Source: Lentzea indica
Lineage (GTDB): Bacteria > Actinomycetota > Actinomycetes > Mycobacteriales > Pseudonocardiaceae
NCBI RefSeq assembly: GCF_012184385.1
Contig: NZ_VSRL01000014.1
Location: 1 to 64,000, forward strand
Reading direction: 5' to 3'
Length of the DNA stretch: 64,000 bases
Position numbers and translations under genes: made by a program. Shown here in pieces: positions 9,698-55,796 of the stretch (the stretch's first letter is position 1; each line of letters begins with the position of its first letter). The notes beneath the pieces were generated by a model. The model was not told the origin of the DNA. It did not search any database and worked only from the letters and a program-made list of their open reading frames with translations.

Positions 9698-9796
9698 GCG
9701 AAGGCGCAGCCGAACAGCCCTTCCCACGCGAAGGCGCAGCCGAGCAGCCCGCGAAGGCGCAGCCGAGCAGCCCGCGAAGGCGCAGCCGAGCCCGCC
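9698..9796. repeat. Four-unit tandem repeat, unit GCGAAGGCGCAGCCGAGCAG plus CCC
   Basis: Four near-identical 23-nt units start at 9698, 9728, 9751 and 9774; the first and second are separated by 7 nt. Each unit contains a small hairpin-forming GGC-GCA-GCC. Related degenerate units open copies B and C of the dispersed element. Confidence 0.85.
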
Positions 9797-9812
9797 CTCC
9801 CATACGACTCTG

Positions 9813-9883
9813 GCGGTGTGGCTCCCCCGTCTAGCGCTCCGACGCTTTAGCCTCTGGTGCGCTGGACGGGGGAGCCACACCGC
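9813..9883. repeat. Long inverted repeat, about 25-bp stem
   Basis: The arms GCGGTGTGGCTCCCCCGTC (9813-9831) and GACGGGGGAGCCACACCGC (9865-9883) are perfectly complementary over 19 bp. The stem continues through TAGCGC/GCGCTG (one G-U pair), giving about 25 bp around a 21-nt loop. It could act as a terminator, a processed RNA hairpin, or a small palindromic insertion inside copy A of the dispersed element. Confidence 0.85.
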
Positions 9884-10088
9884 AGCCGCAACCACCAACG
9901 CAACCGCAAGCCGCCAAAAGCAACGGGCGTGCCATCAACCCGCGAACGGCGCTGGAGGGCTCTTTTGGGAGTGTCGGGAGTCTGAGGGCAGAGCCCTCAG
10001 GAAAAGCACGCACCCGCAACGCAAGCACGCAACCGGAACCCACCTACGGACACGAAACCGGCGCACGCCAACGAAACAGGGAGACGAC

Positions 10089-11024
10089 CTACGAACCCGA
10101 GGCGCCCAACGGCTTGATCCCCCACCGAGCCCCCCAAGACTCCCCAGGAGCAACCCAAATCAGGTCCACCCCAGAGTTCAAAGCATCCGGCGGACAAGTC
10201 ATCGGCTCAATGGCAACAGCCCGACCCCGCCCAGGATAGGAGTCCGGCGTGTACACCTGAACCCACCGAAAAGCCGGATCAGCCCACACCTCGACCCCAC
10301 CACTAGAAGCAACCAACGAGTGGTGCACCAGCCCGTCCCGACCAGGCTCACACCCACCGAACGGCGTGTCCAACCGAACCCCGTCCAACCCCCGACCGGA
10401 ACGGAAGTCGTACTCGGTTCCCTCCACCGGCACAGCCGGCCCAGAAGGAACCATCCGCTCCACATCCAGCGGCACAACGGTCGTAGCAGCCAACGTCAGG
10501 GTGCAGGCATCAGTGGATGCGTTCCCAGCCCGAGGGTAAGGATGGGTCCCGACCCCGAACGGCGTAGCCAGGTCGCCGACGTTCTTGACCCCGTGCGTGA
10601 CAGTAAGCCCGTTGTCGTCCAGCGCGTAAGACACGGTGACGTGCAAAGCCGCAGGCCACCCAGCCTGAGGCTCAATGGTCGTCCGCAACGACACCAACGA
10701 CCCGGTGTGCTCCAGAACGGCCCAAGCCCGCCGCCGCACCAGCCCGTGAATCGCGTTCCCCCGAGCCGGCTCGGTGACCTCGAGCTGTTGAACGACCCCG
10801 TCCAGCACCCAGCAAGCCCCGGCAGTCCGGTTGGGCCACGGCACCAGCACGGCGCCGGCACTCATCGGGGGCTTCTCATCCGCGCCGAACGTCTCCACAT
10901 ACGGAACGCCGTCCACCTCGAAAGACCGCAGGCCCGCCCCTACAGTCGCGATCACGGCGGTGGCACCCTCGTACGAGATCCCCAACATGAGGTTGAAGCG
11001 TACGGGGCCAACGGAAGGATTCAT
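10089..11024 (-). CDS. Aldose 1-epimerase family protein
   Basis: 311 residues of the galactose mutarotase-like beta-sandwich fold, which interconverts alpha and beta anomers of aldoses. Visible motifs are VLVPWPNRTAG, GNAIHGLVRRRAW (sugar-binding His), FGVGTHPYPRAG (second conserved His) and IEPMTCPPDALNSGVDL (conserved Glu near the C-terminus). The ATG at 11024 leaves only 2 bp to the divergent MBL gene; an internal ATG at 10988 is a possible true start. Copy A of the dispersed element lies directly downstream. Confidence 0.88.
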   Translation of the reverse strand: MNPSVGPVRFNLMLGISYEGATAVIATVGAGLRSFEVDGVPYVETFGADEKPPMSAGAVLVPWPNRTAGACWVLDGVVQQLEVTEPARGNAIHGLVRRRAWAVLEHTGSLVSLRTTIEPQAGWPAALHVTVSYALDDNGLTVTHGVKNVGDLATPFGVGTHPYPRAGNASTDACTLTLAATTVVPLDVERMVPSGPAVPVEGTEYDFRSGRGLDGVRLDTPFGGCEPGRDGLVHHSLVASSGGVEVWADPAFRWVQVYTPDSYPGRGRAVAIEPMTCPPDALNSGVDLIWVAPGESWGARWGIKPLGASGS

Positions 11025-18161: not shown

Positions 18162-18417
18162 GCGATGGCGCAGCCGAGCCACCGCGAAGGCGAAGGCGAA
18201 GCCGAGCACCCCTCGCGAAGGCGCAGCCGAGCCGTCCTTCACACACCCCACACCAAACGCAACCCACCCACGCAACAGCACCCCGCCCAACCCAACAGGC
18301 GTGCCATCAACCCGCGCACGGCGCTGGACCCCCGATCAGATTGCTGGGGGTCCGGGGGCAGAGCCCCCGGAGGAACCACAAAACCGCCAGCCGCCAACGC
18401 AACACGACCACCTACGG
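18162..18417. repeat. Dispersed modular element, copy B
   Basis: This copy occupies most of the 479-bp gene-free stretch between asnB (18049) and pdxH (18529). It contains degenerate GCGAAGGCGCAGCCGAGC units (18162-18230), the 36-nt core (18293-18328), stem GGACCCCC/GGGGGTCC (18326-18333 with 18346-18353), hairpin CCGGGGGC-AGA-GCCCCCGG (18352-18370) and CCTACGG (18411-18417). It lies downstream of the minus-strand pdxH, beyond its terminator. No convincing gene was found in it. Confidence 0.82.
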
Positions 18418-18528: not shown

Positions 18529-19185
18529 CTACGGAGCAACCCGCTCCAACTGCCACCCATCCCGCAAAAGCCGGAACCGCAACCGGTCATGCATCCGATC
18601 CCGCCGCCCCTGCCAGAACTCGACCTCCTCAGGCCGAATCCGCCACCCACCCCAATGCGGCGGCACAGGAATCTTCTCGGTGTCAGCGAACTGCCGCTCA
18701 ATCTTGTGCAGAGCAGAGTCCAAAGTAGACCGCCCACTCACAACCCGAGACTGCGGCGAAGCCCAAGCACCGATCTGCGACCCCCGAGGCCGGGAGTTCC
18801 AGTACTCGGCGGTCTCCACCGGCCCGACCTTCTCGACAGTCCCACGAACGTGAGCCTGCCGCTGCATCGCAAACCACGGGAAGGTGGCGGACGCGTACCG
18901 GGTCGCCATCAGGTCGTGCGACTTGTTGGACGTGTAGTTGGTGAAGAACACCAAGCCACGCGCATCGAGTCCCTTGGCCAGCACGGTCCGTGAAGACGGG
19001 CGGCCCTTGGTGTCGGTCGTCGCGAGGACCATCGCGTTCGGCTCGGGGAGGCCTGCACCCGAAGCCTGGTCCAGCCACAGCTGGAGCTGTTCGTGCCACG
19101 TGGCGGCAAGCTCCGACTCGCTCAGCGAGCCCTGCTCGTATGACACGCGCATCGCCGGTAGTGCGATGTTCGTGGTCTCCGTCAT
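18529..19185 (-). CDS. pdxH: Pyridoxamine 5'-phosphate oxidase
   Basis: 218 residues, normal length for the FMN-dependent PdxH that makes pyridoxal 5'-phosphate from PNP or PMP. Conserved segments are NAMVLATTDTKGRPSSRTVL, FFTNYTSNKSHDL, VRGTVEKV, and RIRPEEVEFWQGR near the C-terminus (substrate-binding Arg/Glu). The start has GGAGGTT. It is not fused to other domains. It is monocistronic, with a promoter in the 155-bp gap to ureD and a good terminator. Confidence 0.96.
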   Translation of the reverse strand: MTETTNIALPAMRVSYEQGSLSESELAATWHEQLQLWLDQASGAGLPEPNAMVLATTDTKGRPSSRTVLAKGLDARGLVFFTNYTSNKSHDLMATRYASATFPWFAMQRQAHVRGTVEKVGPVETAEYWNSRPRGSQIGAWASPQSRVVSGRSTLDSALHKIERQFADTEKIPVPPHWGGWRIRPEEVEFWQGRRDRMHDRLRFRLLRDGWQLERVAP

Positions 19186-21272: not shown

Positions 21273-22954
21273 CAGAACAGGAAATATCGTTGAGCCATCG
21301 GCAGTTCGGCGACCGGCGCCGGCTCGACGAGAGCACCGTCGACGTGCACGGCGAAGCTGTCTGGATCGACCCGCACGTCCGGCATCGCGTCGTTGAGGAC
21401 CATGTCCGCCTTGGTGACCGAGCGGGTGTTGGAGACCGGCAGCACGCGCCGCGCGTACCGATCCGCGATCCCTGCCTCGATCGCCTCCGGCGCAACGAAG
21501 AACACGCTCGAAGCGGCTCCGGCCGTGGCACCGAACATCGGCCGCGCCCACACCGGTTGCGGCGTCGGGATCGAGGCGTTGGCGTCGCCCATCGCGCCCC
21601 ACGCGATGAACCCGCCCTTCAACACCACCGACGGCCGCACGCCGAAGAACTTGGGCTCCCACAACACCAGATCGGCGAGCTTGCCCTTCTCCACCGAGCC
21701 GACCTCGGCCGAGATCCCGTGCGCGATCGCCGGATTGATCGTGTACTTCGCGACGTACCGCCGGGCACGCAGATTCGGATCAAGGGAATGCCGGGACTGC
21801 ATCACGTGGGCGGTCTGCCAGGTCCGGATGATCACCTCGCCGACGCGGCCCATCGCCTGCGAGTCGGACGAGATCATCGAGATCGCGCCCAGGTCGTGCA
21901 GCACGTCCTCGGCCGCGATCGTGGTCGGCCGGATGCGCGACTCGGCGAACGCCAGGTCCTCAGGCACGGACGGGTTGAGGTGGTGGCACACCATCAGCAT
22001 GTCGAGGTGTTCTTCGAGCGTGTTGACGGTGTGCGGGCGCGTCGGGTTCGTCGACGACGGCAGCACGTTCGGCAACGAGACCACCCGGATGATGTCCGGT
22101 GCGTGCCCGCCGCCCGCACCCTCCGAGTGGTAGGCGTTGATCGACCTGCCACCGATGGCGTCCACAGTGGACTCCAGGAAGCCGGCCTCGTTCAACGTGT
22201 CCGTGTGGATCGCGACCTGAACACCCGACTCGTCCGCCACGCGCAGACACGCGTCGATCGCGGCAGGCGTCGTACCCCAGTCCTCGTGCAGCTTGAACCC
22301 ACCGGCGCCACCGGCGAGCTGTTCGCGCAAACCCTCGTGCGAGACCGTGTTCCCCTTGCCCAGCAACAGAACGTTGATCGGCATGTGGTCCATCGACGTC
22401 AGCATCCGGTCGAGGTACCAGGCGCCAGGCGTGACCGTGGTGGCCTTCGTGCCCTCCGCGGGACCGGTGCCGCCACCGATCAACGTCGTCAGCCCGGACG
22501 CCAGCGCCTCGTCCACGATCTGCGGGCAGATGAAGTGCACGTGGCAGTCGATGCCGCCCGCGGTCAGGATCTTCCCGTTGCCGGACAGGATCTCCGTCGA
22601 CGGGCCGATGACCAGGTCGGGGTGGACCCCGTCCATCGTGTCCGGGTTGCCCGCCTTGCCGATCGCGACGATCCTGCCGTCCCGCACACCGACGTCGGCC
22701 TTGACGACACCCCAGTGATCGAGGATCACCGCACCGGTGATGACCAGGTCCGGCGCGCCCTCGGCACGGGTCGCGACGCCCTGACCCATCGACTCGCGGA
22801 TCACCTTGCCGCCGCCGAAGATCACCTCGTCGCCCGAACCTGCACCGCGCGAAAGGTCCTCGGTGACCTCGATGAACAGGTCGGTGTCGGCGAGCCGGAT
22901 CCGGTCGCCCACGGTCGGCCCGAGCAGTTCGGCATAGCGCTCGCGGTCGATCAT
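21272..22954 (-). CDS. ureC: Urease alpha (catalytic) subunit
   Basis: 560 residues, standard for UreC. Active-site features are visible: [11 protein letters not shown] (nickel-binding His pair), [13 protein letters not shown] (the carbamylated Lys), [35 protein letters not shown] (flap and catalytic His) and [14 protein letters not shown] (Asp ligand). It hydrolyses urea to ammonia and carbamate with a dinickel centre. Its start overlaps ureB by 4 bp and its stop overlaps ureF. Confidence 0.97.
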
Positions 22955-52670: not shown

Positions 52671-52890
52671 GCGATGGCGCAGCCGAGCCGACCGCAACGG
52701 CGAAGCCGAGCGCGCTTTTCACACCCCACACCCCAAATACGCACGCAACAGCACCCCGCCCAAAGCAACAGGCGTGCCATCAACCCGCGCACGGCGCTGG
52801 ACCCCCGATCAGATTGCCGGGGGTCCGGGGGCAGAACCCCTGGGGGAACCACGAAACCGCCAGCCGCCAACGCACAACAACCACCTACGG
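52671..52890. repeat. Dispersed modular element, copy C
   Basis: This copy lies in the gene-free 377 bp between the MFS gene (52644) and the convergent GHKL gene (53022). It contains degenerate GCGATGGCGCAGCCGAGC units (52671-52715), the 36-nt core (52766-52801), a hairpin CCGGGGGC-AGA-ACCCCTGG (52825-52843; one G-U pair and one terminal mismatch) and CCTACGG (52884-52890). The rest of the gap holds repeats of CACCTACGGCACGAGCGC near 52909-52928 and no convincing gene. Confidence 0.82.
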
Positions 52891-53021: not shown

Positions 53022-55796
53022 TCAGCCCAACAAGGTCGCAGCAGTCGGATCCGTGATCAAAGCAGCGAACGTGTGCCGATCCTCCCACCGCCCAGAAACC
53101 CAAGCCAAAGCCCGAGCCAACCCTTCAGGCGTATCAGCAGCGTGGGGAACCCCATCAGCCATCCACCACTCAACCCGCTGCCCATCAACGACCAACGAGT
53201 CGTGCACAACGACAACCCCGTCAGGCAAAGCAACCTCAAGCAGCTCACAAGCCATCCGAACCGCCCCGAGGTCCTGCCACTGCACCACTTCACCAACATG
53301 GTCGGGCGACCCGTCGAACTCCTCAGAAGCAAGCGCCAGATCCAACAGGTCGGCCAGCTCCTCGGACCCATCAGCAAGCAGCACCCGAGAAGCAGGAACA
53401 ACCCCGAGCAACCAGGGGTGATCAAGGACCACAACGTCGTCAGCAGCAACGACCTCGCCCGAAAGCACGCGAACCCGCTCTGGCGGCGCAAAATCGCCCT
53501 CCGGCAGGGCCGCATGAGCACGCAACACCACGGCATCCGCGATGGCACGATCCGGATCCCCGAGCCGCTCCAGCACGAACTCGGCGTCATCGTCGTCGAA
53601 GATCTCCAGCCGAGACCGAACCCCTGCCGCCCGCAGCACGTGCTCAGGCAACTCCAGATCCGGCACGGCATCGAAGAGCCCGTCGAGCAACGCGGCATCA
53701 GCAAGCCGGTACTCGCGAGGAGCCTTACCCGCCAACGACGCATGCCGGGCGATCCACCAGCCCGTGTACCCGTCAGGCTCGGTCACCGCACGCCAGGTCA
53801 CCGGGTCAGAAGCCAGCAACCGCAACGCAGCCGGCCAGTCAGCCACCAGATCCAGATCCCGAACGGCAACGACGCGACCAGGCTCGTCCGGCACGGACGA
53901 CCACCACGCGGACTCGTCCGGCAGATCGTGATCGGGACCAGCCGGCTCGTCGTCGATCACCAGCGAAAAACCGTCGACCACGCCCACCGCGACCAGCGCG
54001 GAACGCGGATAGGTCTCGGCGATGTCCTTGGACAGCAACGGGAACGCCTCAGCCTCGACGACGCCCACGAGCGCGGAGTCGGGCAGCAGGAGCTCGTCCG
54101 CCCGGTGCCACTCACCAGAAGCGTCAGGCAGCGCCAGCGCACCCAGCCAGGGCTCTTCGCCTGCCCGCACCCCGGCGCGGTCCACCAGCCGCAGCACGGT
54201 CTCGATCAGGTCATCGCCTTCGAGCCCGGCCTCGGCGTCCTCCAACGACCGCGACACGTTCTCGCGCAACGACGGATCGGCCAGCAGCTCGGCAGCGCCG
54301 GCCTCGACCGCGCCCAACCGAACCAGCAGCGGATGCACGGCGTCCGGGTGCACGACCCGCAATCCGGGCAACGGCTCGTCAGCGATCAACGTCGTGCGCG
54401 GACCCGTCACGGTGCGGCCGTCAGCCAACGGCACCGGCAACGACTGCAGCGCCTCGCGAACGTCCGGATCCACCTCGGCCAACGGCTCGAAAGCGGCGTA
54501 GACATCACGCCACCAGCCTGGATCGCCGGAGACACCGGCCAGCGCGGCGACCACCTCGGCCGTGGAGACACGCGGAACTTCCAGCGCCGCCAACGCCTTC
54601 GCGTGCACCGGAGCGGACAGCTCGGCATCCAGGAGCCCCGGCAAGGCGTCCTCGACGAGCTCGACGAGCTCCTCGGAGCCCACGTCCAGCACGCGAGCCC
54701 GCGAAGGCGCGATCCACTCGCCCGAAGCCAAAGGCAGCCACGACGAAGAACGCAACGAGCGAAGCACAGCCGTGCGCAGACGATCGTCCACTTCGGACAG
54801 CGGGAAGCCGGGCAGCGGCACCAGAGCCGTCCGCTCCACCGCAGGAACTCGCGAAATCAGAGCCGGGTACAGAACGGCGGCGGAGTCCAGCACCGACCAC
54901 GCGGCCGCGCCAGGCAGGATCCGGCGGCGCGACGGCTCGACCGGCACGGTGGCGATCAGACGGGCAGGCAACGACAGGCGCTCGTCGGTCGGGGTCGGCG
55001 CGTGCAGCACGTCCTCACCCAACGGAGCATCCAGCGGGTACGCCCACGAGACAGTCCACTGAGGACGATGCTCGACGCCCTGCACCAACTCGGCAGGCAG
55101 CTCACCAACAGCGCGCTCGACCAGCCAGCGCGACGAGCCGACGGTGACCACGCCGTCCGCGGTGACGAAGCGTTCCCACGACTGGGAGCCGACCTCGATC
55201 CGCCGCAGACCCGGCAGCGCCAGCAGCAGGTCGGGAACCTCGGCAGCCAGGTCGTCCAGCGACAGGTCGACCTTCAGCGGCAGCCGGACCTCGGTCGTGA
55301 AACCCTCGGGAACGGTCTCGGAGCAGGGCCACGCCAAGCGCAGCACCGGCACGTCGCCACCGCGCTCGGACGCCAGCTCCGGCACCTCGGAGCGAGTCCG
55401 CGAGGCGGAGAACTCCACGCCACCCGAAACGGACACCACCCGCGGCGCGTCCGACACGGCCAGCACGGCCGCGAAGCCGACGCCGAACTGCCCGACACCG
55501 GACTCCTTGGCCGAGGCGCGCAACGAAGCCAGAGCGGCAACACCGGCAGCGGTCAAAGGCGCACCGGTGTTGGCGGCACGCAGCTCACCGTCCACCAGAG
55601 TGATCCGCAACACACCCGGCTCGGTGCCCGCCGCGTCGGAGGCGTTCTGGGCGAGCTCGACGAGCAGCCGATCCCGGTAGCCGCCGAGGCGAAGGTCTTC
55701 TTCAGCGTTCGCGTCTTCGCGGAAGCGGGTGGGCGAACCACGCCACGCGGCGAGGACCGAGGTGCGCAGGGCCTCGGTCCCGAACGGGTCGGTCAC
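53022..55796 (-). CDS. GHKL-ATPase protein with sacsin/Hsp90-like N-terminal domain
   Basis: 924 residues, starting at a GTG that overlaps the DUF3027 stop (GTGA). The N-terminal ATPase has LLVELAQNASDAAG (Asn-box, N51), GELRAANTGAPLTAAGVAAL and GVGQFGVGFAAVLAV (G2-box), as in Hsp90/sacsin GHKL folds. The remaining ~750 residues are Leu/Val/Asp-rich with repeated ALPLADG-like segments and no known catalytic motif. I infer a chaperone or assembly role; the family is recurrent in actinobacteria but poorly characterised. Downstream (minus strand) lies dispersed element copy C. Confidence 0.82.
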   Translation of the reverse strand: MTDPFGTEALRTSVLAAWRGSPTRFREDANAEEDLRLGGYRDRLLVELAQNASDAAGTEPGVLRITLVDGELRAANTGAPLTAAGVAALASLRASAKESGVGQFGVGFAAVLAVSDAPRVVSVSGGVEFSASRTRSEVPELASERGGDVPVLRLAWPCSETVPEGFTTEVRLPLKVDLSLDDLAAEVPDLLLALPGLRRIEVGSQSWERFVTADGVVTVGSSRWLVERAVGELPAELVQGVEHRPQWTVSWAYPLDAPLGEDVLHAPTPTDERLSLPARLIATVPVEPSRRRILPGAAAWSVLDSAAVLYPALISRVPAVERTALVPLPGFPLSEVDDRLRTAVLRSLRSSSWLPLASGEWIAPSRARVLDVGSEELVELVEDALPGLLDAELSAPVHAKALAALEVPRVSTAEVVAALAGVSGDPGWWRDVYAAFEPLAEVDPDVREALQSLPVPLADGRTVTGPRTTLIADEPLPGLRVVHPDAVHPLLVRLGAVEAGAAELLADPSLRENVSRSLEDAEAGLEGDDLIETVLRLVDRAGVRAGEEPWLGALALPDASGEWHRADELLLPDSALVGVVEAEAFPLLSKDIAETYPRSALVAVGVVDGFSLVIDDEPAGPDHDLPDESAWWSSVPDEPGRVVAVRDLDLVADWPAALRLLASDPVTWRAVTEPDGYTGWWIARHASLAGKAPREYRLADAALLDGLFDAVPDLELPEHVLRAAGVRSRLEIFDDDDAEFVLERLGDPDRAIADAVVLRAHAALPEGDFAPPERVRVLSGEVVAADDVVVLDHPWLLGVVPASRVLLADGSEELADLLDLALASEEFDGSPDHVGEVVQWQDLGAVRMACELLEVALPDGVVVVHDSLVVDGQRVEWWMADGVPHAADTPEGLARALAWVSGRWEDRHTFAALITDPTAATLLG

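Follow-up and report, generated by a model that had tools for sequence, protein, structure and literature searches.

The window examined here, a stretch of 64,000 nucleotides from Lentzea indica (NCBI RefSeq assembly GCF_012184385.1, contig NZ_VSRL01000014.1, positions 1 to 64,000), contains three copies of an interspersed repeat of ordered hairpins which, within the genomes sampled, is specific to Lentzea. A strand-specific C-to-T shift in the flanking DNA goes with the presence of the element, and this association is strong. The orientation of the copies follows replication, not genes.

Modular structure of the copies in the window

A modular element present three times in the window had been noticed in the preliminary description, and its positions, the common order of its modules and the single orientation of the copies are as described there; the resemblance between the copies is far above chance. 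Element sense is defined as the strand read by the covariance model R1 ('+'), which is the window minus strand for copies A, B and C. The features are as follows:

9698–10049, minus strand: copy A, 352 bp, full extent as first described
9698–9791, no strand assigned: GCGAAGGCGCAGCCGAGC-type units of copy A, four in number
9813–9883, no strand assigned: second palindrome of copy A, with 28-nt arms that are 93% complementary and a 15-nt loop
9914–10018, minus strand: core and short hairpin of copy A, R1 match with E 1.8e-24
9982–10000, no strand assigned: short hairpin of copy A, CTGAGGGC-AGA-GCCCTCAG, with two-sided changes in the family
10089–11024, minus strand: aldose epimerase gene, upstream of A in element sense, C-to-T shifted
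18162–18417, minus strand: copy B, full extent as first described
18286–18388, minus strand: core and short hairpin of copy B (hairpin 18351–18371), R1 match with E 3.2e-24
18529–19185, minus strand: pdxH, upstream of B, C-to-T shifted, with a T-run hairpin between pdxH and the element
52671–52890, minus strand: copy C, full extent as first described
52759–52861, minus strand: core and short hairpin of copy C (hairpin 52825–52843, one mismatch), R1 match with E 8.0e-24
53025–55796, minus strand: gene for a 924-aa protein, upstream of C, with the top T share of the three upstream genes in the L. indica genome

In the sense direction, the flanking gene is followed by a G/T-rich stretch with GTAGGTGG, the short hairpin, the core, a second palindrome in the case of copy A, and GGCTCGGCTGCGCCTTCGC-type units. 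The 18-nt units number four in A, three in B and two in C. The 36-nt core is identical at 34 of 36 positions in the alignment of A with B (2 differences), and the short hairpin and CCTACGG are seen in all three copies, the hairpin of copy C with one mismatch. Between the end of the hairpin and the stop codon of the adjoining minus-strand gene lie 89 bp in A, 158 bp in B and 179 bp in C, in agreement with the earlier values.

The epimerase and pdxH assignments of the adjoining genes are borne out by Pfam, while the label of GHKL ATPase given to the 924-aa protein finds no support there, a Pfam search at 1e-5 having returned nothing. The stop of a minus-strand gene does precede each copy, as had been pointed out, but A and B also lie in front of another gene, since both sit between two minus-strand genes, the second of which is an amidohydrolase (A) or an asparagine synthase (B). 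Among the window copies, a convergent gene gap is found at C only. Elsewhere in the window, positions 22511–22801 match the Rfam family 5_ureB_sRNA (64.9 bits; gathering 40).

Distribution of the repeat

With copy A as the query, at least 63 matching stretches, the query included, were found in the L. indica genome at E<=0.001 (40 of 91 candidates scored). The covariance model R1 gave at least 47 matches at E<=0.01 in the same genome (G000, 634 contigs), 40 of them strong at E<=6e-22, with 150 of 10640 candidates scored in this search and 40 of 138 in a further copy search. These 40 of the 47 R1 matches make up the L. indica set used below; the other seven, of which four are short and lie where a contig begins and three are weak, were left out.

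The covariance-model search of this and related genomes that had been proposed with the preliminary description reveals a lineage-specific repeat with conserved pairing. All 24 Lentzea genomes (L. indica and 23 relatives) have an R1 match at E<=0.001, with 1 to 44 matches per genome, the genome G023 having a single weak match (E 4.5e-4). No R1 match was found in 16 genomes from other families. Among 200 genomes sampled from the Lentzea family, ten match at E<=1e-6, all of them Lentzea; G023 is the eleventh Lentzea of that sample and has no match at this threshold, and in the remaining 45 genera of this sample R1 has no match (one of 46 genera positive). In a pattern scan, the matches listed (80 loci of at least 92 stretches) belong to Lentzea or to 'Nocardia sp. 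NRRL S-836', the latter apparently corresponding to the same-genus genome G008. Searches of Rfam returned no match at the window copies nor at the copies in the ten loci oriented against replication (see below), and only six sub-threshold matches (five microRNA families and one plastid intron) at ten further loci. In the literature searched, neither this repeat nor a comparable effect on flanking DNA came to light.

Several individual loci have particular junctions. The copies L009, L029 and L057 (contigs C432, C606 and C379 of L. indica) stop near the contig edge in the common sequence GGTTCCGGCAAAGTCGTGT... right after the short hairpin, as if one multi-copy insertion sequence had inserted there in all three, and L251 has a junction resembling these. 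At L248 (Lentzea aerocolonigenes) the end of an open frame directly precedes the core, and by eye we take this end to resemble the C-terminus of an IS110-type transposase. When occupied and empty sites were compared by eye, the flanks were too divergent for calling a target-site duplication, which together with terminal inverted repeats is a mark of MITEs. In the alignment A1, the three bases between CCCGC and CGGCGCTGG are highly variable (GCG, GCA, CGA, TGA, AGG, GAC and others) inside a nearly invariant core.

Hairpin structure

The short hairpin has two-sided changes that preserve pairing at 3–4 pairs (26 copies). The counterpart of the second palindrome in other Lentzea species is a longer hairpin, about 145 nt in length, of which the palindrome of copy A looks like a short form. 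In 24 of the 29 full-size long hairpins, 98.0% of 1529 cells are paired, as opposed to 34–47% with slid structures, and 27 of 64 pairs have two-sided changes, which affect 184 of 1529 cells. Of five measures, four are higher than in any of 500 shuffles, whereas the one for further pair types is matched by 312 of 500. The inner part of the hairpin has 99.6% of cells paired and a two-sided change in 18 of 30 pairs. In 28 of 29 cases the better fold of the long hairpin is that of the strand opposite to element sense (the window plus strand). An inverted repeat of the second-palindrome kind was sought in copies B and C and not found; since these copies still show the effect on their flanks, the long hairpin is dispensable for it.

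The C-to-T shift in flanking DNA

Around the 40 L. indica copies, the skew of T over A and of G over C in element sense peaks beside the element and fades over 1.5–3 kb. At 4-fold sites of the sense genes upstream, T/(T+C) rises from 0.17 far from the element to 0.65 within 400 bp, and around 75 copies of other Lentzea (75 of 80 loci used) from 0.15 to 0.73. Downstream of the L. indica copies, whichever way the gene points, it is 0.30–0.33 over the first 1 kb and 0.09–0.16 by 3–4 kb, and the copies of other Lentzea behave alike. Element-free convergent gaps give 0.098 within 300 bp (27 gaps, sampled in the relative G002 and not in L. indica). Sense genes far from copies have a somewhat higher T share, 0.15–0.17 vs 0.10. 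Near the element A/(A+G) drops at 4-fold sites.

The orthologous sites in sister species allow this shift to be followed with and without the element. In syntenic blocks of seven relatives, sites A–C are occupied in some and empty in others, some of the 'empty' ones retaining decayed pieces. Base shares were compared at A and B in eight genomes (L. indica and the seven) and at C in six, G002 and G010 being omitted there because of an incomplete gene match or too short a block. The last 150 codons of the epimerase gene have C 0.09–0.18 and T 0.16–0.37 in all four genomes with the element, against C 0.30–0.46 and T 0.01–0.09 in all four without it; G002 is also low in C at site A, but with G 0.74 instead of T. 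In the gene upstream of site C, T is 0.46 in L. indica, 0.29 in G005 and only 0.09 in G009, all with the element, and 0.01–0.09 without it (six genomes). The contrast is weaker and overlapping in the far-side genes of A and C: the gene facing site C is shifted in L. indica only, and on the downstream side of site A the occupied G005 equals the empty G003. For pdxH, compared in 14 genomes, T/(T+C) is 0.57–0.75 in all five that have the element, 0.18 where the copy is decayed, and 0.06–0.17 in seven of eight without; pdxH of G007 (L296) has 0.40 with no element found downstream, where a copy has perhaps been lost recently.

Direct counts in the genes upstream of A–C, which left out the decayed G011 copy (pdxH) and G009 (site C) and are not independent, several occupied genomes being compared with the same empty ones, give C>T changes at 214 of 1954 C (0.110) with the element vs 67 of 3081 (0.022) without it. 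G>A changes are at 24 of 2244 (0.011) with the element vs 38 of 3531 (0.011) without. In these genes G>T is raised (0.0134 with the element vs 0.0040 without); A>G is not in excess (0.0106 vs 0.0119), nor do C>G and G>C increase. The C>T share is only mildly uneven by 5' neighbour, 0.07–0.17.

Orientation and gene context

In the complete genome of the relative G002, with dnaA at 2.90 Mb, copies are on the minus strand from 0.14 to 3.03 Mb (12 of 12), on the plus strand from 3.14 to 5.95 Mb (7 of 7), and on the minus strand at 6.84 and 9.78 Mb. Taking dnaA as the origin and the opposite point as the terminus, 19 of 21 copies are co-directional with the fork (binomial 1.1e-4); dnaA was used for placing the origin, GC skew from 20 sampled pieces being too noisy. 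Twenty of the 21 copies are within about 3.2 Mb of dnaA, which leaves a single copy for the third of the chromosome most distant from it. On the dnaA contig of G016, 17 of 19 copies point with the fork, and on those of five more genomes 8 of 9, 6 of 7, 4 of 5, 3 of 3 and 2 of 2. The total on the dnaA contigs of the seven genomes is 59 of 66 copies (for G010 among the matches listed), excluding one additional consistent copy (G021:C2) and with the counts not independent across genomes, as loci are common to several species. Of the sampled G002 genes, 135 of 247 (54.7%) are on the leading strand. All five L. indica contigs with at least two strong copies are internally uniform in orientation (12 copies); some contigs without dnaA have mixed orientation (e.g. 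G012:C8, G012:C43 and G001:C23). The assembly of L. indica consists of 634 contigs, with the window unplaced relative to the origin, and the three-of-three orientation in the window is best explained by the direction of replication.

Ten copies point against replication; they represent about four distinct sites, and the minority polarity of L340, L345 and L346 was assigned from contig neighbours. These wrong-polarity copies are mostly in two conserved loci (L337, L340, L341, L342 and L345; L338, L339 and L346), and most of the eight have the core sub-variant CTGATCCAAA. No tRNA genes or Rfam families were found at the wrong-polarity copies; only the SRP RNA is nearby, in three loci, and of the two conserved loci one has it in the vicinity.

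Genes were predicted by our own script, a finder based on amino-acid composition; a codon-usage gene finder missed genes with shifted third positions, such as that of the epimerase, and was not used for the counts. Both flanking genes are predicted for 24 of the 40 L. indica copies (7 are without a predicted upstream gene and 9 without a downstream gene, many being at contig ends), and of these 15 are convergent, 6 tandem sense, 2 tandem antisense and 1 divergent. In other Lentzea (57 of 75 copies), the numbers are 31, 12, 12 and 2, respectively. The copies thus avoid divergent gaps, and they bear no constant relation to the gene that ends before them.

From the single orientation of the three copies, each after a gene stop, the preliminary description had proposed, as one possibility, a 3'-end or post-transcriptional role, and an RNA element of this kind, such as a terminator or stabiliser, would account for the two-sided changes in the hairpins and for the upstream gene being in sense for 26 of 33 L. 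indica copies. It is quite unlikely. The relation to the preceding gene is inconsistent, tandem contexts elsewhere in Lentzea being 12 sense and 12 antisense, and copies lie mainly in convergent gaps, where the upstream stop codon is uninformative because either orientation follows one. In 33 aligned rows inspected by eye, no T-run follows the short hairpin in either direction, as it would in an intrinsic terminator. At pdxH the element is not needed as a terminator, because a separate T-run hairpin lies between the gene and the element and is also present in element-free relatives. The orientation of the copies follows replication, and the gene 3'-end is out as its reason given the gene contexts and the share of leading-strand genes. 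Inconsistent orientation to genes, together with a lack of conserved pairing, had been named as grounds for abandoning the proposal; consistent gene orientation is indeed absent, but the conserved paired structure is present.

Strand and reach of the shift

Downstream T/(T+C) is 243/853=0.285 for the wrong-polarity copies (nine copies, L345 having no data) and 338/1096=0.308 for ordinary ones (ten, hand-chosen from G016 and G001). The sign of the non-coding skew just upstream is identical in all ten wrong-polarity copies, and their upstream 4-fold sites, available for four copies, have 0.07–0.16 beside three antisense genes and 0.36 beside one sense gene. The shift and its strand are similar in these copies, and therefore the element, not the fork, sets the strand; they weaken the idea that replication determines which strand is mutated. 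Resection of a two-ended break is out, as the same strand is changed on both sides.

Farther upstream the effect varies with gene context. At −1000 to −500, the median for the L. indica copies is 0.39 with no terminator (14 copies), 0.19 with a terminator (8; p 0.003) and 0.04 beside an antisense neighbour (5; p 0.003), where terminators were called by an automatic rule; in a by-eye version, 8 of the 13 script-flagged terminators were kept, L154 was dropped, and four resembling element modules were counted as no terminator. The downstream values of these classes, 0.30, 0.26 and 0.30, are not significantly different (12, 7 and 3 copies, respectively). In other Lentzea, the same upstream interval gives 0.27 as against 0.08 beside antisense genes (42 and 11 copies; p 0.0002) and the downstream side 0.27 vs 0.18 beside antisense genes (p 0.27), the terminator contrast comprising only 3 copies with a terminator (p 0.23). 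As the far-upstream shift is smaller with a terminator or an antisense gene, sense transcription reaching the element seems to lengthen the upstream effect. Closer to the element, at −500 to −200, L. indica copies with and without a terminator are not significantly different (p 0.25), and a short-range upstream effect persists, with 0.477 beside antisense genes in other Lentzea (−300 to −150) and 0.53 behind terminators (−300 to −200). This short-range part seems to remain without sense transcription.

Possible mechanisms

The reading that we favour, tentatively, is that the structured repeat may trap transcription, as an R-loop or as stalled complexes, leaving the non-template strand exposed to cytosine deamination. 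RNA polymerase travelling in element sense (along the window minus strand) would be held up at or in the repeat, and either the G/T-rich transcript would re-anneal to the template or stalled complexes would hold the bubble open. The non-template strand, which in this proposal is the strand that gained T, would stay single-stranded and its cytosines would deaminate. At copies pointing against replication, the fork could run head-on into such structures; selection would then eliminate these copies, and the replication polarity would result. In favour of this reading are the one-strand shift around the copies of L. indica and of other Lentzea, its link with the presence of the element, the far-upstream dependence on terminators and gene orientation, a strand that follows the element and not the fork, and the polarity of the copies. 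The weakest step is the downstream plateau of about 1.3 kb, for which transcription would have to start in the element or read through it. Several observations stand against the transcription trap: the downstream effect is equal in antisense and sense genes and needs such supposed transcription; the better folding of the long hairpin on the other strand does not fit the mechanism; the short-range upstream effect persists beside antisense genes and behind terminators; and the element of G009 at site C has little shift, while pdxH of G007 is shifted without an element. Also unfavourable are the weak contrast between occupied and empty sites on the downstream side, a terminator contrast that comes from the L. 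indica copies, the T share of sense genes even far from copies, the raised G>T, and the prevalence of G over T at site A in G002.

A rather doubtful explanation is that of a replication gap, in which the hairpins would block the polymerase copying the element-sense strand and the upstream gap would be filled late, its cytosines deaminating meanwhile. The element-sense strand is the lagging-strand template in 59 of 66 copies (the dnaA-contig count above, G010 again among the matches listed). Okazaki fragments are of kilobase scale, which fits the scale of the shift; the fully paired double changes of the inner long hairpin suit hairpin-templated correction, and this explanation also accommodates the short-range effect that remains without sense transcription. 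However, the downstream effect is similar for either polarity, and neither the downstream plateau nor the far-upstream dependence on terminators and gene orientation is predicted. It is unlikely that the skew came first, with a mobile element entering pre-existing single-stranded skewed sites in the fashion of IS200/IS605 or REP/RAYT and its polarity reflecting insertion into the lagging-strand template. Replication polarity, intergenic placement and the occupied and empty orthologous sites would suit such insertion, but the element-free orthologues are mostly unskewed, the decayed copy is little skewed, and wrong-polarity copies are skewed on the element's own strand. Furthermore, the Y1 transposase (PF01797) is found in 4 of 10 Lentzea genomes and missing in six that all have copies (G002, G006, G009, G010, G011 and G013); a RAYT partner is out, as this transposase is not common to all copy-bearing genomes. 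Hypermutation driven by reverse transcription, of the diversity-generating or retron-like kind with the hairpins as a priming signal, would agree with a gradient declining away from the hairpin-rich gene end, but it is extremely improbable, as the change is C-to-T and on both sides. Of 12 genomes, 5 have no RVT_1 match at E<=1e-6, the copy-rich G001, G006, G010 and G020 among them, and both a diversity-generating retroelement and a retron are largely refuted, a reverse transcriptase not being common to all copy-bearing genomes.

Comparison with known systems and significance

The repeat joins the interspersed palindromic repeats as a new member at the level of a genus. REP and BIME sequences are described as short palindromic intergenic repeats located mostly between converging or unidirectional genes (PMC3733652). 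The Lentzea repeat is likewise intergenic and mostly in converging or unidirectional gaps, but it is longer, with several modules in a fixed order, its copies are mostly oriented with replication, and its flanks are C-to-T shifted. It also differs from the REP/RAYT systems in having no GTAG (or CGTC) tag, as no GTAG is seen by eye beside the short hairpin in the aligned copies (GTAGGTGG occurs tens of bases from it), and in the absence of the RAYT (Y1) transposase from 6 of 10 genomes. The BRE of Bordetella, a beta-proteobacterial repeat element, is GC-rich, intergenic, about 90 bp long and present in up to 29 copies, and is reported not to be co-oriented with the replication fork (PMC3110155). 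The Lentzea repeat shares the GC-rich intergenic character with BRE and differs in that its copies are mostly co-oriented with the fork.

The transcription-trap reading has a parallel outside bacteria. Immunoglobulin switch regions consist of repeats with a G-rich non-template strand, on which cytosines are deaminated in an R-loop. The Lentzea element has in common with them its repeat nature and, on the proposed reading, a G-rich non-template strand with cytosine deamination on that strand, while it is bacterial and intergenic, and no sequence-specific deaminase is implied, because C>T is only mildly uneven by 5' neighbour. Transcription-associated C-to-T change on the non-transcribed strand was reportedly observed in E. 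coli by Beletskii and Bhagwat; the strand and the base change are alike, but in Lentzea the shift is concentrated around a repeat and exceeds that seen in genes distant from copies. The element might be regarded, with due caution, as a cis-acting, orientation-dependent mutator repeat, a possible bacterial counterpart of a switch region, at which, wherever it sits, transcription would expose one strand, C would change to T over about 1 kb on either side, and copies would be co-directional because head-on copies are harmful.

The rate and direction of mutation are usually ascribed to the whole genome, to the replication strand or to the level of expression, and here they go with a local repeat. 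Such repeats can distort codon-usage and skew statistics. The presence or absence of the element at given sites in sister species, with a strong, local C-to-T shift on one strand of ordinary genes, pdxH for example, amounts to a natural experiment. It allows one to ask how bacterial DNA comes to be single-stranded in vivo, through R-loops or replication gaps, and bears on whether conflicts between transcription and replication limit where repeats sit.
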